Shown: one piece after another, positions 3,519 to 28,048 of the stretch
How the letters are laid out: every line of letters starts with the position of its first letter
Position numbering within the stretch: the stretch's first letter is position 1
NCBI GenBank assembly: GCA_028703445.1
Contig: JAQVMW010000001.1
Coordinates: 62,001-126,000 of the forward strand
Direction: 5' to 3'
Length of the DNA: 64,000 nucleotides
Source: Candidatus Peribacteraceae bacterium
Lineage (GTDB): Bacteria > Patescibacteriota > Gracilibacteria > Peribacterales > Peribacteraceae
Notes under the pieces: model-generated
The model's input: the letters and a program-made list of their open reading frames with translations, nothing else
Databases searched by the model: none
What the model was told of the DNA's origin: nothing
Made by a program: the position numbers and the translations under genes

Positions 3519-3607
3519 AAAGTATTCCATGGTATACCGATTGCCTTTCCGTCACGAGCGCGACTTACACGCTCCCCCACCCCTTGCATCCTCTCATGTA
3601 TACAAAC

Positions 3608-3702
3608 CTCTCCCCCTCACCCCCTCTCCATCGGAGAGGGGGAATGTTTTGTTTGTAGTTGTTCTCCCCTTCCTCTGGTGGAGGAAGGGGTCAGGGGATG
3701 GA
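3608..3702. repeat. Paired GC-rich hairpins (REP/BIME-like, nuclease-free copy)
   Basis: Two hairpins lie head to head between the PBP and TypA genes. The left one has CCCCCTCACCCCCTCTCC followed by GGAGAGGGGG. The right one is CCCCTTCCTC pairing with GAGGAAGGGG and then GGGGATGGAG. About 20 nt separate them. The same two hairpins flank the DUF559 cassette inside ribE (14470-14953), so this looks like the non-autonomous version of that unit. Confidence 0.75.
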
Positions 3703-3790
3703 GATTTGGATAAAAATAGGAAAAATCCCGACTTATCGCCTTCCGGAGTATTCCCGCAAGTGCCAAATTCTGGTAAAGTACATGGGATTC

Positions 3791-5587
3791 ATGTCCATCC
3801 GTAACATTGCAATCATCGCGCACGTCGACCACGGCAAAACCACGCTCGTGGATGCACTCCTGAAACAGGGCGGCGCATTCCAGGAGTACGAAGAGGTGGG
3901 CGAACTGATGATGGACTCTAACGCGCAGGAGAAGGAGCGCGGCATTACCATCTACGCCAAGAACACGTCCATCCACTACAAGGAGTGCAAGATCAACATC
4001 GTGGATACACCGGGGCACGCGGACTTCGGCTCCGAGGTGGAGCGGATTCTGCGCACGGTGGACTGTGTGCTGCTCGTCGTGGACGCGCAGGAGGGACCCA
4101 TGCCGCAAACCAAGTTCGTCTTGAAGAAATCGCTTGAACTGGGGCTCAAACCCATTGTCGTCATCAACAAGATCGACAAACCCGCCGCGCGCCCGATGGA
4201 AGTGGTGGACGAGGTCTTCGACCTCTTCATCGCCCTCAAGGCCAATGAGAAGCAGCTCGACTTCCCCTACATCTTTGCCGTGGCGCGCGAAGGTATCGCC
4301 AAGAGAACGCTGGAAGATCGCTCGGAGGACTTAACTCCCCTCTTTGATCTCATCATGGAACACGTGCCGGAAGCGGAACAGAATCTCACGGCTCCGTTCC
4401 GCATGCAGCCAAGCAGCCTTGCCTACGATAACTATCTGGGCCGCATGGCCGTGGGAAGAGTCTATGAGGGAATTGCGCGGCCGGGCAACAAGGTCTTCAT
4501 CAAAACGGCAGATGGATCGGTACGCACGGCAAAGGTGGCGAAAGTCATGGTCGCGGACGGGCTCAAGCGTACCGAGGTGAGCGAAGCGCACGCGGGCGAC
4601 ATCGTGACGATTGCGGGAATCCCCGACATCACCGTGGGCGAGACCATCACCACGGACGAGAACGCCGACCTGCTGCCGGCCATCCAGATCGACCCTCCTA
4701 CGATCTCGATGAACTTTCTCGTGAACAATTCCCCGTTCGCGGGGAAGGAAGGCAAGCTCGTGACCACCCGCCACATCAAGGCACGGCTGGAGAAAGAGAA
4801 AGAGACGAACGTGGGACTCAAAGTGGAAGAAATCCCCAATTCCGATACGTACAAGGTTTCGGGCAGAGGCGAATTGCACCTCTCGGTGCTCATCGAGGCC
4901 ATGCGCCGCGAGGGTTTTGAGTTGCAGGTGTCACAGCCGGAAGTGATTATGAAAGAGGAGAACAGCGTGAAGCTGGAGCCCATCGAGCAGGCGATTATCG
5001 ACGTACCCGAGGAATTCACCGGCACCGTGATCGACATGCTCTCCCGCCGCAAGGGCGAGATGGTGGACATGAAGACGCACGAGCATCACACGCGGCTGGA
5101 GTACAAAGTCCCGACGCGCGGCCTCCTCGGTTTTCGCGGGGACTTCATCATCGAAACGCGTGGCGAGGGCATCCTGACCCACTCCTTCATCGCCTACGAA
5201 CCCTTCAAGGGTGAACTGACGCACAAGTCGCACGGCTCCATGATCTCGATGGAGAACGGCGTGGCGGTGGCCTTCGCGCTGTGGGGGCTGCAGGAACGCG
5301 GACGCCTCTTCATCATTCCGCAGACCAAGGTCTACGTGGGCATGATCATCGGCGAGAGCAACAAATCGGACGAGATGACCGTGAATCCCACCAAAGAAAA
5401 GAAGCTCAGCAACATGCGCGCTTCGGGCACCGACGAGGCGATCAACCTCGTGCCCGTGCAGCCCATGACACTCGAACAGGCACTGGAATACATCGCGGAA
5501 GACGAACTTGTGGAAGTGACGCCCTTGAGTATCCGATTGAGAAAGAAACTGCTGACGGACAACGACCGCCGCCGGGCGCGAAGATAG
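3791..5587 (+). CDS. typA: GTPase TypA/BipA, ribosome-associated
   Basis: Translational GTPase of the EF-G/LepA group that acts in 50S assembly and stress growth. The G domain begins at the chosen start, [18 protein letters not shown], with the P-loop AHVDHGKT, switch [10 protein letters not shown] and NKID. Domains II, III and V and the TypA-specific C-terminal region follow. The protein is 598 aa, normal for the family. The frame is open further upstream, but that stretch encodes the REP-like hairpins and a TAAAGT -10 lies at 3774-3779, so ATG at 3791 is the start. It is a single-gene unit. Confidence 0.95.
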
Positions 5588-20691: not shown

Positions 20692-22626
20692 TCACCGCTT
20701 TCGCAAGATTCTTTTCACTCCCGGCACCTCCAGGATCGCATCGTAGAGATCGCTGAATTGCTGAAAATTCTTGACCTCCAGGCGGATTTTGTAGAGAGCA
20801 TCCATCGGTGGAAATGCAAAAACCAGGAATTTTGAAATGTTGATGCCTCTTTCAGCAAAGCATTTGGAAATGCTGTAAATCATACCGGGCTGGTCACGGG
20901 AATAGATCTCCAGATCAATAAGAGATGCCTCCTTATTGAGCACGCGCGTTCGCGGGAGCAGGTGCAGCCATTTCAGAATACGAATGGTCCAGCTCGGTGG
21001 CGTAATGAGAAGATGACGGTAATTTTCAATGACTGTACCCACCGAAATCGATCCGCTGCCAACTTCCTCAAGAAGAAGATCAAAGGATGAAAAATTGCAT
21101 TCCTGCGCCAGACGTTCCTGCACAGGACTGAAGTGGAACAGCCACCAGATGGGCAGCCGGTATTTGGCGCACTCGGCCTTCAGGAGGTTCGCACCATCTT
21201 TGCGACGCTCCGCCTTGGGATGATGCCGCAAGGTCTGCCGCAGACGTTCACGCGCACGCACGGACTTCACCTTTTCCACCCACACCGTACGACGGTCTGT
21301 TTTCTCTCCGTTGAGAAGAACAAGCTCCACGGTCTCCCCTTCATTGAGAATACGCGTTGCCTCACTGACTTCGCCGCCATCCACCCGGATGCCTGCCAGA
21401 TATCGAATATTGTCCGGATCAATTTCAAAAGCAAAATCCACTCCCGTCGCACCGGCGGGCAGTGTCACGATTTCGCCGGCACCGGTAAAGACATTGATGC
21501 GCTCGGCAAGAACCGTCTGCTGCAAATTCTGGAGGTACTGCTGATCGTTAAGCGTAAAGGCATGCAATGCACTCAGCGCATGGTAGACATCCCCTCCATT
21601 CTCCGATTCCCACGAAGAAATCTTGCGCTTGAACGAATACTCATGAATGACAGCAGTCTGAATCCGCAAACGAAACTCGTGGCTCTGCGAAAGGAACACT
21701 GTCGTATGGAGGGCTCGATATCCGTTAGGCTGCGGCGTGGAAATGTAATCACGAAAAGAGGCCGGACGCGCCTGATGGTGCTCATGAATTTCGCCCAGAA
21801 GCCAGTAACATTCCAGCGGAGATGACCGCTGCACAATGAGCAGACCGGAATCAATGGCATTCGCGTTTGTGAGACGGCTTAAGACACGTTGCATTTTGAT
21901 GAAGATTTCATAGTCGGTCATCAGCGAAAGCTCTGCATGGACTTCTGCACCCGTCTCCTGATTCACCTGCTGAATGAACTGGACACGCTCTCCACTCACT
22001 TCTGCCCGCACACGCTCAATGGCCTGATGCCACTCTTTACTCTCCTGAGGATACGCAACGGGAAAACAAATCTCTTCGAATTGCTTCTTCGCCTCCCACC
22101 ATCCGACGAGCCGGGCAAATGGAACGTAGATATCCAGCGTTTCGAGGGCGATGCGTTCCCGCTTCTGCTGCCGCAGAGCGGAAAGCGTTTCTACATTATG
22201 AAGCCGGTCTGCGATCTTGATCAGGATGACACGCAAATCATCGTTGGCCGTGAGCAGCATTTTTCGTAGTGACGCAACCTGCCGGTCCGAAAGTCTGCCC
22301 TCGTAGAGACTCTTGCTCATCTTCGTCACCCCCTCCACCAGATGCGCCACTGTCTTGCCAAATTCGCTCTCGATCTGTTCAACAGTCGCATGACCATCCT
22401 CCACCGTATCATGCAACAGAGCGGCGATGAGCATATCCTTCTGGGCTTCCAGTCGTGCAAGATAGAGAGCCGTCGTGATGGGATGGATTACATAGGCCTC
22501 GCCCGATTCCCGCTTCTGTCCTTCATGCAACTGCACAGAACGCGCAAGTGCACGCTCCACCTCCTCCCGATCTCGCACCCGAAGGTACAAAAGAGAATCA
22601 CGGAACTGGTGGTCAATTCCCGCCAT
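20692..22626 (-). CDS. RelA/SpoT-type (p)ppGpp synthetase/hydrolase
   Basis: Stringent-response enzyme. The HD hydrolase domain (about 25-190) has YVIHPITTALYL, LLHDTVEDG and KIADRLHNVETL. The synthetase region has YISTPQPNGYRALHTTVF, with the catalytic site less canonical than in Rel. A TGS domain (INVFTGAGEIVTLPAGAT) and a C-terminal ACT domain (SRDQPGMIYSISKCFAERG) follow. It has 644 aa. TATAAT at 22635-22640 overlaps an upstream ATG, so ATG at 22626, 8 nt downstream, is the start. Confidence 0.9.
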   Translation of the reverse strand: MAGIDHQFRDSLLYLRVRDREEVERALARSVQLHEGQKRESGEAYVIHPITTALYLARLEAQKDMLIAALLHDTVEDGHATVEQIESEFGKTVAHLVEGVTKMSKSLYEGRLSDRQVASLRKMLLTANDDLRVILIKIADRLHNVETLSALRQQKRERIALETLDIYVPFARLVGWWEAKKQFEEICFPVAYPQESKEWHQAIERVRAEVSGERVQFIQQVNQETGAEVHAELSLMTDYEIFIKMQRVLSRLTNANAIDSGLLIVQRSSPLECYWLLGEIHEHHQARPASFRDYISTPQPNGYRALHTTVFLSQSHEFRLRIQTAVIHEYSFKRKISSWESENGGDVYHALSALHAFTLNDQQYLQNLQQTVLAERINVFTGAGEIVTLPAGATGVDFAFEIDPDNIRYLAGIRVDGGEVSEATRILNEGETVELVLLNGEKTDRRTVWVEKVKSVRARERLRQTLRHHPKAERRKDGANLLKAECAKYRLPIWWLFHFSPVQERLAQECNFSSFDLLLEEVGSGSISVGTVIENYRHLLITPPSWTIRILKWLHLLPRTRVLNKEASLIDLEIYSRDQPGMIYSISKCFAERGINISKFLVFAFPPMDALYKIRLEVKNFQQFSDLYDAILEVPGVKRILRKR

Positions 22627-22691
22627 GATTGGCAATTATATCACGAAATCGTCTTCTGCAGGACTTTTTTGCACCTTCAAAATGAGTGATT

Positions 22692-23142: not shown

Positions 23143-26100
23143 ATGTTCGACCCCGTGGATCCCAAGCAGCGGCTGCCGGAACTGGAGGAAGGCATCCTCC
23201 GCTACTGGCAGGAGGAAGACATCTTTAAGAGGAGTCTCCGGCTTCGTTCGACAGGGACGGGCGACCTGCTGGATGGTCCCGTGGGAGGCAAAGGGGAAGC
23301 ATTTTCGTTCTACGACGGCCCGCCGTTCGCCACGGGTCTGCCCCACTACGGACACCTGCTTGCCGGCACGATCAAGGACGTGATCCCCCGCTACCAGACG
23401 ATGCGGGGCAAGTACGTAGAACGCCGGTTCGGCTGGGACTGCCACGGGCTGCCCGTTGAGAACCTGGTCGAGAAGGAACAGAACATCGCATCGCGCCGTG
23501 AGATCGAGCAGATGGGCGTGGATACATTCAACGCGCTCTGCCGCACCTCCGTGCAGCGCTACACGAAAGAGTGGCGGACGGTCGTTTCGCGTATGGGCCG
23601 CTTCGTGGACATGGACAATGACTACCGCACCATGGACCCCGAGTACATGGAATCGATTTGGTGGGTCTTTAATCAGCTGCACACGAAGGGACTCGTCTAC
23701 GAGGGACGGAAAGCCATGCAGGTCTGCCCTCGTTGCGAAACGCCGCTCAGTAACTTCGAGGTGACGCAGGGCTACAAGGATATCGATGACATCGCCGTCA
23801 CGTGGAAGTTCAGGCTCGCGGGAGAAAAGAACACCTTCGTGCTCGCCTGGACCACCACGCCGTGGAGCACGCTCTCCACGATGGGACTCTCCATCAAACC
23901 CGATGCTCTGTACGCCAAGGTTCGCGCAGGCGACGAAGACCTGATCATGGTGAAGAGTCGGGTGGCAGAGGTGATGAAAGGAACGGAACAGTTTGAAATC
24001 GTCGATGAATTCCCCGGCAGGAAACTGGTGGGCAAGGCCTACGAACACATCGCCCCCTGGTACGGGGAAATTCCGGAGGTCAAAAAGAATCCCCATGTCT
24101 ACCACATCTTCGCCGCGGACTACGTGGATCCGTCGGAGGGAACGGGCATCGTGACGATCAACGGCTCGTACGGCGAGATCGATATGGAGGCGGCGAAAAA
24201 GAACAAGCTGCCCATCATCATGGACGTGCAGATGAACGGCCACTTCGGCCCCGAGGCCGGCCCCTACGCGGGCATGCACGTGGAAGACGGGGAGAAACAG
24301 ATCATCGAAGACTCCCGCAAAAAGAGATTCGTCTGGCGCAAAGAGACCTATCGGCACAGCTATCCCCACTGCTGGCGGTGCGAGACGCCGCTCCTCAACT
24401 ACGCCACGAGCTCGTGGTTCGTGAACGTTTCGAAAATCAAGGAAGACATTCTCGCGTCCAATGCCAAAACCACGTGGGTCCCCGCGCACGTGCGCGACGG
24501 AAGGTTCGGCAAGTGGCTCGCAGGCGCGCGCGACTGGGCGATCAGCCGCAACCGCTACTGGGGCACTCCCCTGCCGATCTGGCGCTGCAATGAAACAAAA
24601 GATCTGACGGTGATCCAGAGCCGCGACGAACTCATGGCACAGCAACGCATCCGCTTCACCAAGGTATCGGTCCTGCGGCACGGAGAGAGTGAAGGAAATT
24701 TGGTGCCGGTTTATCAGGGCACCTGCCCGGGCACGCACTTGACGGCAACGGGAAAGAAACAGGCTGCGGCTGCGGCGGATTTTCTGAATGCTGGAGAAAT
24801 CTCCGCCATCTACTGTTCGCCCTTGGACCGGACGAAAGAAACCGCGGCGATCATCGCGAAGGCGACAGGTGCTCCCGTGATCGTGGATGAACGCCTGCAC
24901 GAAGTGCTCTTCGGGGACTATGAAGGCAAGACCGTCGACTTCTCGGATTTGACCTTCGTGAAAGCGCGCAGGGCTCACAAGCTCGAAACCAATGCCCCCG
25001 AAAGCATCTATCACTTTCCGGGCATGGAGACGTTTGGCGCCGTGCACGAGCGCATCAGCGCATTCCTCGAAGAAGTTCTCCCCCGGTACCGCGGCGGCCA
25101 CATCGTCATCGTCACGCATGCCGACCCGCTCCAGAACATCCAGCACTTCTTCACGCTGGAAGATCCCATGAAACTGAATCACCGGCCGTATCCCCGGTAT
25201 GCCGAGCCCGTAACCTTCTTCTGGGACCATCGCACTCAATCCCAACTCGACCTGCACAAGCACATCGTGGATGACATCATGTGGGGCGCTTCGGAGCAGA
25301 AGAATGACATTCAACTGACCTTGGTTCGCCACGGCGAAACGGACTACAACGCGAAAGATATCGTCAATGGCGGCAATGTCGACACGCTCCTCAATGAGAC
25401 GGGACGCTCTCAGGTCCGCGCACTCGCCAAGAAACTCAAGAAGAAGAAATACGACGTGATCATTTCGTCGAATCTGAAACGCGCCGTCGAAACGGCAGAG
25501 ATCCTCAGCGCGGAACTGAAGGTGCCGCATGCGGCCCGGTGGAAGGAACTGAATGAGCGCGACACGGGTGATTGGTCCGGCAAGCCCGAACAGAAGTACC
25601 GGACCGCTCTGCCGAATGGCGTGATCGCAAGCCCCGGGCTCTCTCCTCTGACTCCTCCGGGCGGCGAAAGCTTCGAAGCATTCCTGCGGCGATTGGAAGA
25701 AGCTTTGCAGCGCATCCGCGCGGAATACCCGGGCAAGCGCGTGCTCGTGGCCTGTCATGGCGGCCCGCTGAAATGCCTGCAGGCACTGGTTGACAATCTC
25801 TCCCTCGCGGAAGCGGCGGCACTCGCACCCAAGAACGCCGAGACGATTGATCTCAAGCTCCCGGCCCTCATGCAACGCATTCCGGAGGTGCTCGACTGCT
25901 GGTTCGAATCCGGTTCCATGCCGTACGCGCAGAGCCACTTCCCTTTCGCGTTCAGTAAGAACAACCACAATTCCAAGTTCCCACCCGGGTTCCCGGCGGA
26001 CTTCATCGCCGAGGGCATGGACCAGACGCGCGGGTGGTTCTACACCCTCATGATCCTGTCGACGGCTCTCTACAAGCAACCCGCGTTTTTGAACTGCATC

Positions 26101-27525
26101 GTCAACGGCATCGTGCTGGCCGAGGACGGCAAGAAGATGAGCAAGCGCCTCAAGAACTATCCGGAGCCGATCGAAGTGGTCCATCGCCACGGTGCGGACG
26201 CCGTGCGCTTCACGCTCATGAGTTCGCCCGCCGTCCGGGGCGAAGACCTGCGCTTCTCGGAAACACTCGTTTCGGAGACCGTGCGTTCCGTGCTACTTCC
26301 GCTCTGGAACGTCTTTGTCTTCTTCGTGACCTACGCGAACGCCGCGAAGTTCGAGCCGGTCGAAAGCCGCCGTCACAGTAACCATCCTCTGGATCGTTAC
26401 ATCCGCGCCGAGGTGCAGGATCTCGTCAACCGCATCACGCGCGAGCTCGACCGCTACGACCTGTCGGCCGCCTGCAGCGAGATGCACGACACGATCGACG
26501 CGCTCACCAACTGGTACGTGCGCCTCTCGCGCCGCCGTTTCGCCGGCAAGGGCGCGGTGGATGAAGAGGATACGAGCCCATCCGCGGAACTTTCGACACA
26601 TGAAGGAGAGCAGACGGAAGCGCTCGCGACTCTCTATGACGTGCTCCTCACCATCTGCCAGGTACTCGCCCCGTTCTGCCCGTTCATCACCGACGCGATC
26701 TACGTGAATCTCGTCCCCGAAGACCACGGATCGGTGCACCTGACCAACTGGCCCGACTGCAAGGAACTCACGACTGAAGAGCGTGCGCTCATCGAGCGCA
26801 ACCGCCTGCTTCGACTGATCGTGTCGCTCGGCCTCGGCATCCGCGGAGCAAAAAAACTCAAGGTGCGCCAACCGCTCGCGCGCGCCCTCGTCGCCCTGCC
26901 ACCGTCGGTCTCGACCGACGTGGCCCTGCCGCCGGCTCTCGCGAAGATTGCACTCACCGAAGGTGACCGCGACCTCCTCAAGAACGAACTCAATGTGAAA
27001 GATTTGGAATTCGCCGCAGACCCCGGCACGCTCGCTCAACGTTTCGCGCAGGTGGATGCGCGTAAGGTGGGTCCGCGCCTGGGTGCGCGCGTGCAGGAAA
27101 TCATCAAGGCAGGCAAGGCGGGGGATTTCACGGTGCGGGAGGATGGCGCCGTGCTCATCCTGGATGAAGTACTCGCTCCCGATGAGGTGAACATCACGTA
27201 TCGCAGCAGGGAGGGTGAAGACATCGCAGCCGACAAGGGCGTCGTCGTGAGCATGGAAACGACCGTGACTGAAGCGCTCAAACGCGAAGGCCTGGCACGC
27301 GATCTCATCCGCGCAGTACAGAAAATCCGCAAGGAAGCGGGATTGCACTTCGCCGACTCGATTGCGCTTGAGATAGACGGCCTACAGCAAATCTTGCAGG
27401 AACACGGCAACGTGATCGCACAGGAAACGCATGCCGTGCTGCAGGAGAATGATGGAAACCCGGTACGCGTGAACATTGACGGATCGGACGTGACGGTGAG
27501 GCTGAAGAAATTGTCACATGGATAA
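23143..27525 (+). CDS. ileS: Isoleucyl-tRNA synthetase with two inserted histidine-phosphatase domains
   Basis: Charges tRNA-Ile. HIGH is PPFATGLPHYGH, KMSKS is KMSKRLKNYPEP, and DCWFESGSMPYAQ, the anticodon domain and an eukaryote-like C-terminus are present. The catalytic core is broken twice. Residues about 505-690 are a phosphoglycerate-mutase/histidine-phosphatase domain (VLRHGESEGN; second His VTHADPL). After the native DLHKHIVDDIMW motif a second one follows (about 721-905; LVRHGETDYN; VACHGGPLK). Both keep their catalytic residues. Total 1460 aa against about 1000-1050 normally. TACACT lies 8 nt before the ATG. Confidence 0.95.
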   Translation: MFDPVDPKQRLPELEEGILRYWQEEDIFKRSLRLRSTGTGDLLDGPVGGKGEAFSFYDGPPFATGLPHYGHLLAGTIKDVIPRYQTMRGKYVERRFGWDCHGLPVENLVEKEQNIASRREIEQMGVDTFNALCRTSVQRYTKEWRTVVSRMGRFVDMDNDYRTMDPEYMESIWWVFNQLHTKGLVYEGRKAMQVCPRCETPLSNFEVTQGYKDIDDIAVTWKFRLAGEKNTFVLAWTTTPWSTLSTMGLSIKPDALYAKVRAGDEDLIMVKSRVAEVMKGTEQFEIVDEFPGRKLVGKAYEHIAPWYGEIPEVKKNPHVYHIFAADYVDPSEGTGIVTINGSYGEIDMEAAKKNKLPIIMDVQMNGHFGPEAGPYAGMHVEDGEKQIIEDSRKKRFVWRKETYRHSYPHCWRCETPLLNYATSSWFVNVSKIKEDILASNAKTTWVPAHVRDGRFGKWLAGARDWAISRNRYWGTPLPIWRCNETKDLTVIQSRDELMAQQRIRFTKVSVLRHGESEGNLVPVYQGTCPGTHLTATGKKQAAAAADFLNAGEISAIYCSPLDRTKETAAIIAKATGAPVIVDERLHEVLFGDYEGKTVDFSDLTFVKARRAHKLETNAPESIYHFPGMETFGAVHERISAFLEEVLPRYRGGHIVIVTHADPLQNIQHFFTLEDPMKLNHRPYPRYAEPVTFFWDHRTQSQLDLHKHIVDDIMWGASEQKNDIQLTLVRHGETDYNAKDIVNGGNVDTLLNETGRSQVRALAKKLKKKKYDVIISSNLKRAVETAEILSAELKVPHAARWKELNERDTGDWSGKPEQKYRTALPNGVIASPGLSPLTPPGGESFEAFLRRLEEALQRIRAEYPGKRVLVACHGGPLKCLQALVDNLSLAEAAALAPKNAETIDLKLPALMQRIPEVLDCWFESGSMPYAQSHFPFAFSKNNHNSKFPPGFPADFIAEGMDQTRGWFYTLMILSTALYKQPAFLNCIVNGIVLAEDGKKMSKRLKNYPEPIEVVHRHGADAVRFTLMSSPAVRGEDLRFSETLVSETVRSVLLPLWNVFVFFVTYANAAKFEPVESRRHSNHPLDRYIRAEVQDLVNRITRELDRYDLSAACSEMHDTIDALTNWYVRLSRRRFAGKGAVDEEDTSPSAELSTHEGEQTEALATLYDVLLTICQVLAPFCPFITDAIYVNLVPEDHGSVHLTNWPDCKELTTEERALIERNRLLRLIVSLGLGIRGAKKLKVRQPLARALVALPPSVSTDVALPPALAKIALTEGDRDLLKNELNVKDLEFAADPGTLAQRFAQVDARKVGPRLGARVQEIIKAGKAGDFTVREDGAVLILDEVLAPDEVNITYRSREGEDIAADKGVVVSMETTVTEALKREGLARDLIRAVQKIRKEAGLHFADSIALEIDGLQQILQEHGNVIAQETHAVLQENDGNPVRVNIDGSDVTVRLKKLSHG

Positions 27526-27652: not shown

Positions 27653-28048
27653 ATGTCCAACGATTCCGGAGGTTCCCTCCCACTCAAGATCACCATCAAA
27701 GCAATTCTGAACGTCACCCTCGTCTGGGCGATGGCCACATACCTCGATCAGTATTTCGCGCTCACCGGAGGGTGGCGGGCGATTGTCATCGTCGGTGCGC
27801 TCTTAACACTCTTGAATCTCCTCGTCCGCCCGATCCTCGCCGTTTTGACGCTCCCCTTAAAAATCTTCGCCACTATTCTCGCTGTGATCGTGGTGAACGG
27901 CATTTTCGTGTGGCTCGTGCATTTGCTCGTCCTCAAGATGGACCCCGCCATCGTGGGGCTCGAGATCTACGGCGGAGTCTGGGGCTGGATCGTCGTGGCC
28001 GCAGCGATCGGGTTTGCGAACTGGGTGATGAAGGAAATCATCCGATAG
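27653..28048 (+). CDS. Phage-holin superfamily IV / YvlD-like membrane protein
   Basis: 131 aa with four hydrophobic helices (IKAILNVTLVWAMATYL, IVIVGALLTLLNLLVRPIL, IFATILAVIVVNGIFVWLV, GWIVVAAAIGFANWV). LNLLVRPILAVLTLPL is the family signature. In bacteria these are housekeeping small membrane proteins linked to envelope stress, rather than lysis holins. TACACT lies 7 nt before the ATG. Confidence 0.85.
   Translation: MSNDSGGSLPLKITIKAILNVTLVWAMATYLDQYFALTGGWRAIVIVGALLTLLNLLVRPILAVLTLPLKIFATILAVIVVNGIFVWLVHLLVLKMDPAIVGLEIYGGVWGWIVVAAAIGFANWVMKEIIR

Follow-up and report, generated by a model that had tools for sequence, protein, structure and literature searches.

Two histidine-phosphatase domains inserted in the isoleucyl-tRNA synthetase of a Peribacteraceae bacterium, one case of a recurrent pattern in Patescibacteria

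Introduction

Few enzymes are as conserved as the aminoacyl-tRNA synthetases. Inserted or fused domains are nevertheless a known kind of variation in them (PMC13114784; PMC5370408), and B2-TyrRS is a Patescibacterial synthetase that has gained a foreign domain (PMC5370408). In that case, however, the gain is an N-terminal RNA-binding OB fold and not an inserted enzyme. The isoleucyl-tRNA synthetases (IleRS) of NF040702 likewise carry an extra enzyme domain, but there it is an N-acetyltransferase. Here we analyse the gene ileS in a 64,000-nucleotide stretch of DNA (hereafter the window) from a Candidatus Peribacteraceae bacterium (contig JAQVMW010000001.1, positions 62,001 to 126,000). Its product is an IleRS with two inserted histidine-phosphatase (HP) domains, which we call inserts A and B.

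Outside the inserts, domain order and fold are those of type 2 (eukaryote-like) IleRS. The enzymes of Saccharomyces cerevisiae (7d5c/8wnd) and Priestia megaterium (IleRS2, 8c8v) are the best matches in sequence and fold, but their connective peptide 3 (CP3) is short and has no phosphatase. The inserts share their fold and catalytic residues with the PhoE/CobC/PspA-like branch of phosphatases (PhoE 1h2e; Hydrogenobacter thermophilus phosphoserine phosphatase 4ij6). Those enzymes are free, however. No NCBIfam model specific for a substrate scores above its cut-off on the inserts. The initial annotation of this locus knew of no enzyme of such form, and the literature we covered, with subscription journals mostly outside that coverage, describes no synthetase with an inserted phosphatase. 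There is a real chance that the function of the HP domains is new.

Judged from sequence, the IleRS of this cell probably carries two catalytically active HPs on the surface of CP3, where they would work together with the synthetase.

Results

A synthetase with two phosphatase domains

The ileS frame is uninterrupted from the ATG at 23143 to the stop at 27525 (Table 1), and it contains IleRS and two HP domains, as the initial annotation had it. The product lies above the curated cut-off of the ileS equivalog model TIGR00392 (777 bits vs 621.4) and shows the class I signatures HIGH and KMSKS as HYGH (residues 68-71) and KMSKR (998-1002). Its Pfam matches are, in order, tRNA-synt_1 (two stretches), His_Phos_1 (two stretches), Anticodon_1 and DUF5915; both domain types that the annotation proposed to search for are present, each in two stretches. 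His_Phos_1 scores 270 bits on the whole protein (E 1e-80), and PF00300 scores 128.7 and 150.8 bits on the two domains against a gathering score of 21.7. In contrast, NF040702 gives 229.9 bits against a cut-off of 1999, and no GNAT domain is present. Named relatives of the protein belong to 'Candidatus Peregrinibacteria' and 'Candidatus Peribacteria' (56-63% identity), which places the window in the Patescibacteria. The genome comprises 1.37 Mb on 23 contigs.

The IleRS sequence leaves off after SRDEL (493-497) and restarts at RIPEVLDCW (912). Between the inserts lies the native 12-residue stretch DLHKHIVDDIMW (703-714), which aligns with DLHKHxVDxI of insert-free IleRS, so the first description of two neighbouring insertions holds. 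The same is true of the claim that both domains keep their catalytic residues: these are R512, H513, R563, E587 and H659 in insert A, and R729, H730, R780, E805 and H872 in insert B. The arginines and histidines bind phosphate, and the glutamate is the acidic residue. The location given by the annotation, inside the catalytic core, has to be corrected. Judged by the domains mapped in yeast IleRS (PMC7955072), both inserts fall in CP3 and so occupy the edge of the catalytic domain, not its core. The further claim that insert B replaces a cysteine-containing loop is right in part. This loop has a CxxC motif in many distant relatives, but it is already free of cysteine in family members without B.

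Structure prediction was another check that had been proposed. The AlphaFold2 model of residues 1-1200 (mean predicted local distance difference test score, pLDDT, 88.4; predicted template modelling score, pTM, 0.86) has yeast IleRS structures as its best PDB matches, and domain B takes a predicted histidine-phosphatase fold within it. For domain A alone the pLDDT is 92.9, and the nearest PDB entry is PhoE (1h2e, template modelling score, TM, 0.82); the solved structures closest to this domain are Bacillus PhoE and Hydrogenobacter phosphoserine phosphatase.

Table 1. Features of the ileS locus, in window positions
Feature	Positions	Strand	Evidence
ileS, isoleucyl-tRNA synthetase, 1460 aa, two inserted histidine-phosphatase (HP) domains	23143..27525	+	open frame, TIGR00392, Pfam
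N-terminal IleRS part, residues 1-497: HYGH 68-71, CP1 editing domain, WGTPLPIW, SRDEL	23143..24633	+	
Insert A, residues 498-702, HP core ~508-682, histidine-phosphatase domain	24634..25248	+	His_Phos_1
Native CP3 stretch DLHKHIVDDIMW, residues 703-714, separating inserts A and B	25249..25284	+	
Insert B, residues 715-911, HP core ~725-902, histidine-phosphatase domain	25285..25875	+	His_Phos_1
C-terminal IleRS part, residues 912-1460: RIPEVLDCWFESG, KMSKR 998-1002, anticodon-binding domain, DUF5915	25876..27525	+	
RelA/SpoT homologue (HD_4, RelA_SpoT, TGS, ACT_4), divergent ileS neighbour	20692..22635	-	Pfam
Small membrane protein, Phage_holin_4_2 family, after ileS in most family loci	27653-28048	+	

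Conservation within the family

We compared 57 IleRS loci of the family, the window included. Two HP domains are found in 47 of them, three in one, and one in nine (a single-HP locus, L055, is a fragment). Hence the insertion is double or triple in 48 of the 57 loci, which settles the question of conservation among relatives that the annotation had raised. The triple-phosphatase IleRS (L044 in genome G001, of the same genus) is a frame of 1644 amino acids in which residues 518-1097 hold insert A and two copies at site B.

The catalytic arginine, histidine, arginine, glutamate and histidine are invariant in the 57 site A domains of the family, the last histidine being present in 56 with one gap. 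At site B (50 domains) the second arginine, the glutamate and the last histidine occur in 50/50, the first histidine in 49 with one gap, and the first arginine in 48, next to one leucine and one gap. In 28 site A domains from other Patescibacteria all five residues are invariant, while mean column conservation is only 0.49; the glycine of the RHG motif is often replaced by alanine at site A. Between close relatives, pairwise ratios of nonsynonymous to synonymous substitution rates (dN/dS) are 0.07-0.19 for A, 0.12-0.20 for B and 0.08-0.18 for the IleRS core. Because the catalytic residues are invariant and dN/dS is like that of the core, these comparisons indicate that the HP domains are under selection as enzymes, in a protein whose synthetase core is intact.

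Recurrence across Patescibacteria and separate origins

The initial annotation treated the protein as a single unusual enzyme. It is real and conserved, but it is one case of a recurrent Patescibacterial pattern that includes valyl-tRNA synthetase (ValRS) and free-standing partner genes. HPs enter IleRS at four or more sites across Patescibacteria, in one to three copies, and the matching site of ValRS is also used. Other families of the class have HPs at sites A and B, at site C (after SMPYAxxHYPF) and at site D (the start of the anticodon-binding part); one IleRS (L078) has three, at B, C and D. In several genomes the part of ValRS that corresponds to CP3 contains one HP or two.

Frames of more than 900 amino acids were inspected in 87 genomes of Patescibacteria, of which 80, a random draw, belong to other classes. 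Eleven of the 80 have an HP in such a frame: nine in IleRS, always at site A, and two in ValRS. No protein of more than 900 amino acids other than IleRS or ValRS has an HP in the sampled genomes, the long frames of the class included. About 30 IleRS loci from outside Patescibacteria, a small sample among the matches listed, have no insert.

The trees of HPs and of IleRS are quick ones with many weak nodes, and we claim no exact number of gains from them. One supported branch divides the HP tree in two. The HPs of sites A and C lie on one side, with most of those from site D and two from ValRS; the other side holds stand-alone HPs together with the family's site B, site B of family f9, site D of family f5 and the larger ValRS group. 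On the tree of the IleRS core, the labels have to change nine times for A, six for B, three for C and four for D. These trees point to several independent acquisitions of the HPs in IleRS and ValRS. Inserts A and B, too, appear as separate acquisitions, since they fall in different clades of the HP tree: A in an old synthetase-associated clade, B in one confined to the family. A tandem duplication of one insert as the source of both is rejected for the same reason. The extra copy in the triple-phosphatase IleRS lies inside the family B clade, and the two B copies of that protein are just 49% identical. A phage origin was also considered and rejected; domain B matches phage proteins at merely ~31% identity.

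The phosphatase as a separate gene

In four Patescibacteria the HP is a gene of its own upstream of an ileS without inserts, and in three of them the two genes are tightly coupled. In Patescibacteria UBA4067 (L121) a 195-amino-acid HP gene overlaps the start of ileS by 4 nucleotides. In two other loci it lies directly upstream, with a gap of 4 (L229) or 14 (L228) nucleotides, and in a fourth (L230) it is upstream with other genes between, one of which has an HD_4 domain. The HPs of L121, L228 and L229 group with inserted HPs in an eight-row clade (support 97); the HP most closely related to that of L121 is found in L227, away from ileS. Because the three HPs nest with inserted ones, the tree most likely means that the HP left the synthetase and stayed adjacent. 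The reverse order, in which a free HP gene beside ileS came first and was inserted later, is less favoured. Outside Patescibacteria, in 6/41 genomes of the family of Urinicoccus (Bacillota), ileS is directly followed by an HP gene, at distances of 0-60 nucleotides (five measured).

Which phosphatase it is

The only HP of the genome outside ileS (L001) is the glycolytic diphosphoglycerate-dependent phosphoglycerate mutase (dPGM; TIGR01258, 215 bits vs a cut-off of 81.7). Domain B scores 55.5 bits with this model, below the cut-off, and domain A has no listed match. A glycolytic mutase that moved into ileS is rejected on these grounds. The CobC model TIGR03162, with each domain scored alone, gives 91.2 bits for A and 110.6 for B, both below its cut-off of 162.9.

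Editing site, neighbouring genes and other inserted domains

Asn250, His333 and Asp342 (E. coli numbering) form what we take to be the canonical post-transfer editing site of IleRS. In the window this site is altered. Residues 236-246 (23848-23880) read WTTTPWSTLST vs WTTTPWTLPxN, with threonine for the asparagine, and residues 333-347 (24139-24183) read GTGIVTINGSYGEID vs GTGIVHxAPxFGEDD, with threonine for the histidine and the aspartate kept. Nine family loci (the window included) and L111 have the altered site, and L070 has a variant form; the asparagine and histidine are retained in most other family members and in most HP-bearing IleRS. Loss of editing as the reason for the inserts is rejected, as the altered site is seen with and without HP.

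The RelA/SpoT homologue beside ileS adjoins it in 13 other family loci and is possibly linked to the phosphatase-bearing IleRS. In L230 the RelA/SpoT-like HD_4 gene (3542-4051, +) lies upstream of ileS, between the HP and ileS.

HPs are not the only domains found inside these synthetases: GNAT, Y1_Tnp, MuF_C, HAD and Ser_hydrolase domains occur as well. GNAT acetyltransferase domains lie within the IleRS of L087, L091 and L124, the last a protein of 1787 amino acids that combines GNAT with a MuF_C match and an HP. An IS200-like Y1 transposase domain sits in frame in the IleRS editing region of L086 (residues 351-428) and L088 (370-449). One ValRS (L249, 827-4660, genome G330) has three different enzyme inserts, a HAD hydrolase, a serine hydrolase and a histidine phosphatase. 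A C-terminal histidine phosphatase is also found in five proteins of 437-463 amino acids (L251-L255); the three tested, L251, L253 and L255, have an N-terminal VTT membrane domain.

Discussion

Sequence features alone make it very probable that the inserted HP domains are active phosphatases. A functional tie between these domains and the synthetase is less secure but still favoured. The HP would work together with IleRS, or in other lineages with ValRS, and the two would be held close together at a fixed ratio by fusion or by coupling in an operon. The HP might strip phosphate from a phosphorylated small molecule, a nucleotide or an RNA end. Such a substrate could arise from, or block, the charging of tRNA with isoleucine or valine, and its removal would then protect or tune charging; our guess is a phosphorylated inhibitor or a by-product of charging. 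We would not bet on any particular substrate, each being unlikely on its own. An alarmone-like nucleotide is a candidate, on thin grounds, because HD_4 (RelA/SpoT-like) genes recur beside ileS. AMP, tRNA 3' phosphates, phosphorylated inhibitors and phosphoproteins are further candidates. As for the substrates named in the initial annotation (AMP, tRNA ends or an alarmone), the sequence neither supports nor excludes them.

The strongest rival explanation is that the HP is an ordinary metabolic phosphatase, parked in an essential carrier that tolerates insertions and is never lost from small genomes. Several genomes indeed have an HP solely inside the synthetase, the relatives of known structure that come nearest are broad phosphatases, PhoE for example, and other unrelated domains are likewise carried in these synthetases. 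We still consider this explanation unlikely, for the following reasons. First, IleRS and ValRS are the only large proteins that carry an HP in the sampled genomes. Second, the HP often occurs alongside other HPs, and family members have two or three copies. Third, HPs that have split off remain beside ileS.

A second possibility is that the HP senses a phosphometabolite: its pocket would bind a ligand and gate aminoacylation via CP3, with catalysis secondary. The inserts do break CP3, which adjoins the catalytic domain at its second half, and most of the conserved pocket residues would serve binding too. The glutamate, however, matters more for turnover than for binding, and it is invariant in the A and B domains of the family and at site A of other Patescibacteria, so that a pure sensor becomes less likely. 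Free-standing HPs, moreover, would be unable to gate the enzyme in the same manner. Taken together, we think this role improbable.

Poorer still are the prospects of an inert structural insertion that took the place of a CP3 zinc loop. Site B does replace a loop that bears CxxC in many relatives, and several family members manage without B. Yet the catalytic residues are invariant, dN/dS is low, and just some of the four sites are near the zinc loop; the existence of the HP as a separate gene beside ileS is strong evidence against a role in structure only. An artefact of assembly or binning, which a multi-contig assembly that is probably a metagenome bin might suggest, is rejected with next to no doubt, because 48/57 family loci, dozens of genomes including the single-contig G004 and G033, share the same junctions.

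Several observations weigh against the partnership of active phosphatase and synthetase that we favour. Insert-free IleRS are numerous in the same class, and hence the activity is not generally required. Because unrelated domains also enter IleRS and ValRS, tolerance may account for part of the pattern. A catalytic residue is missing from some inserts: the first arginine is lost in 1/50 site B domains, and the glutamate position deviates in 5/10 ValRS HPs. Domains A and B fall below the cut-off of every NCBIfam family with a known substrate. The Bacillota gene pair is present in only those 6/41 genomes, and the Urinicoccus HP that was placed in a tree lies outside the inserted clade.

We advance only tentatively, at slightly less than even chances, the wider proposal that bacteria have a dedicated phosphatase partner of isoleucine and valine tRNA charging. 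Some Patescibacteria would have fused it repeatedly into IleRS and ValRS at several sites, others would keep it in a coupled neighbouring gene, and in some Bacillota it would again be paired with ileS. If it were true, a fourth activity would stand beside activation, transfer and editing, and its substrate would be something that branched-chain aminoacyl-tRNA synthesis makes or is poisoned by. The same kind of HP occurs in IleRS, in ValRS and as a gene of its own, which allows activity to be assayed independently of partnership. The inserts also offer a natural series for studying the tolerance of an essential enzyme to 20-kDa insertions, whether one, two or three. An intact phosphatase under selection, which arrived several times and at different sites in two sister synthetases, would imply that tRNA charging, or its protection, involves a chemical step that has not been looked for.

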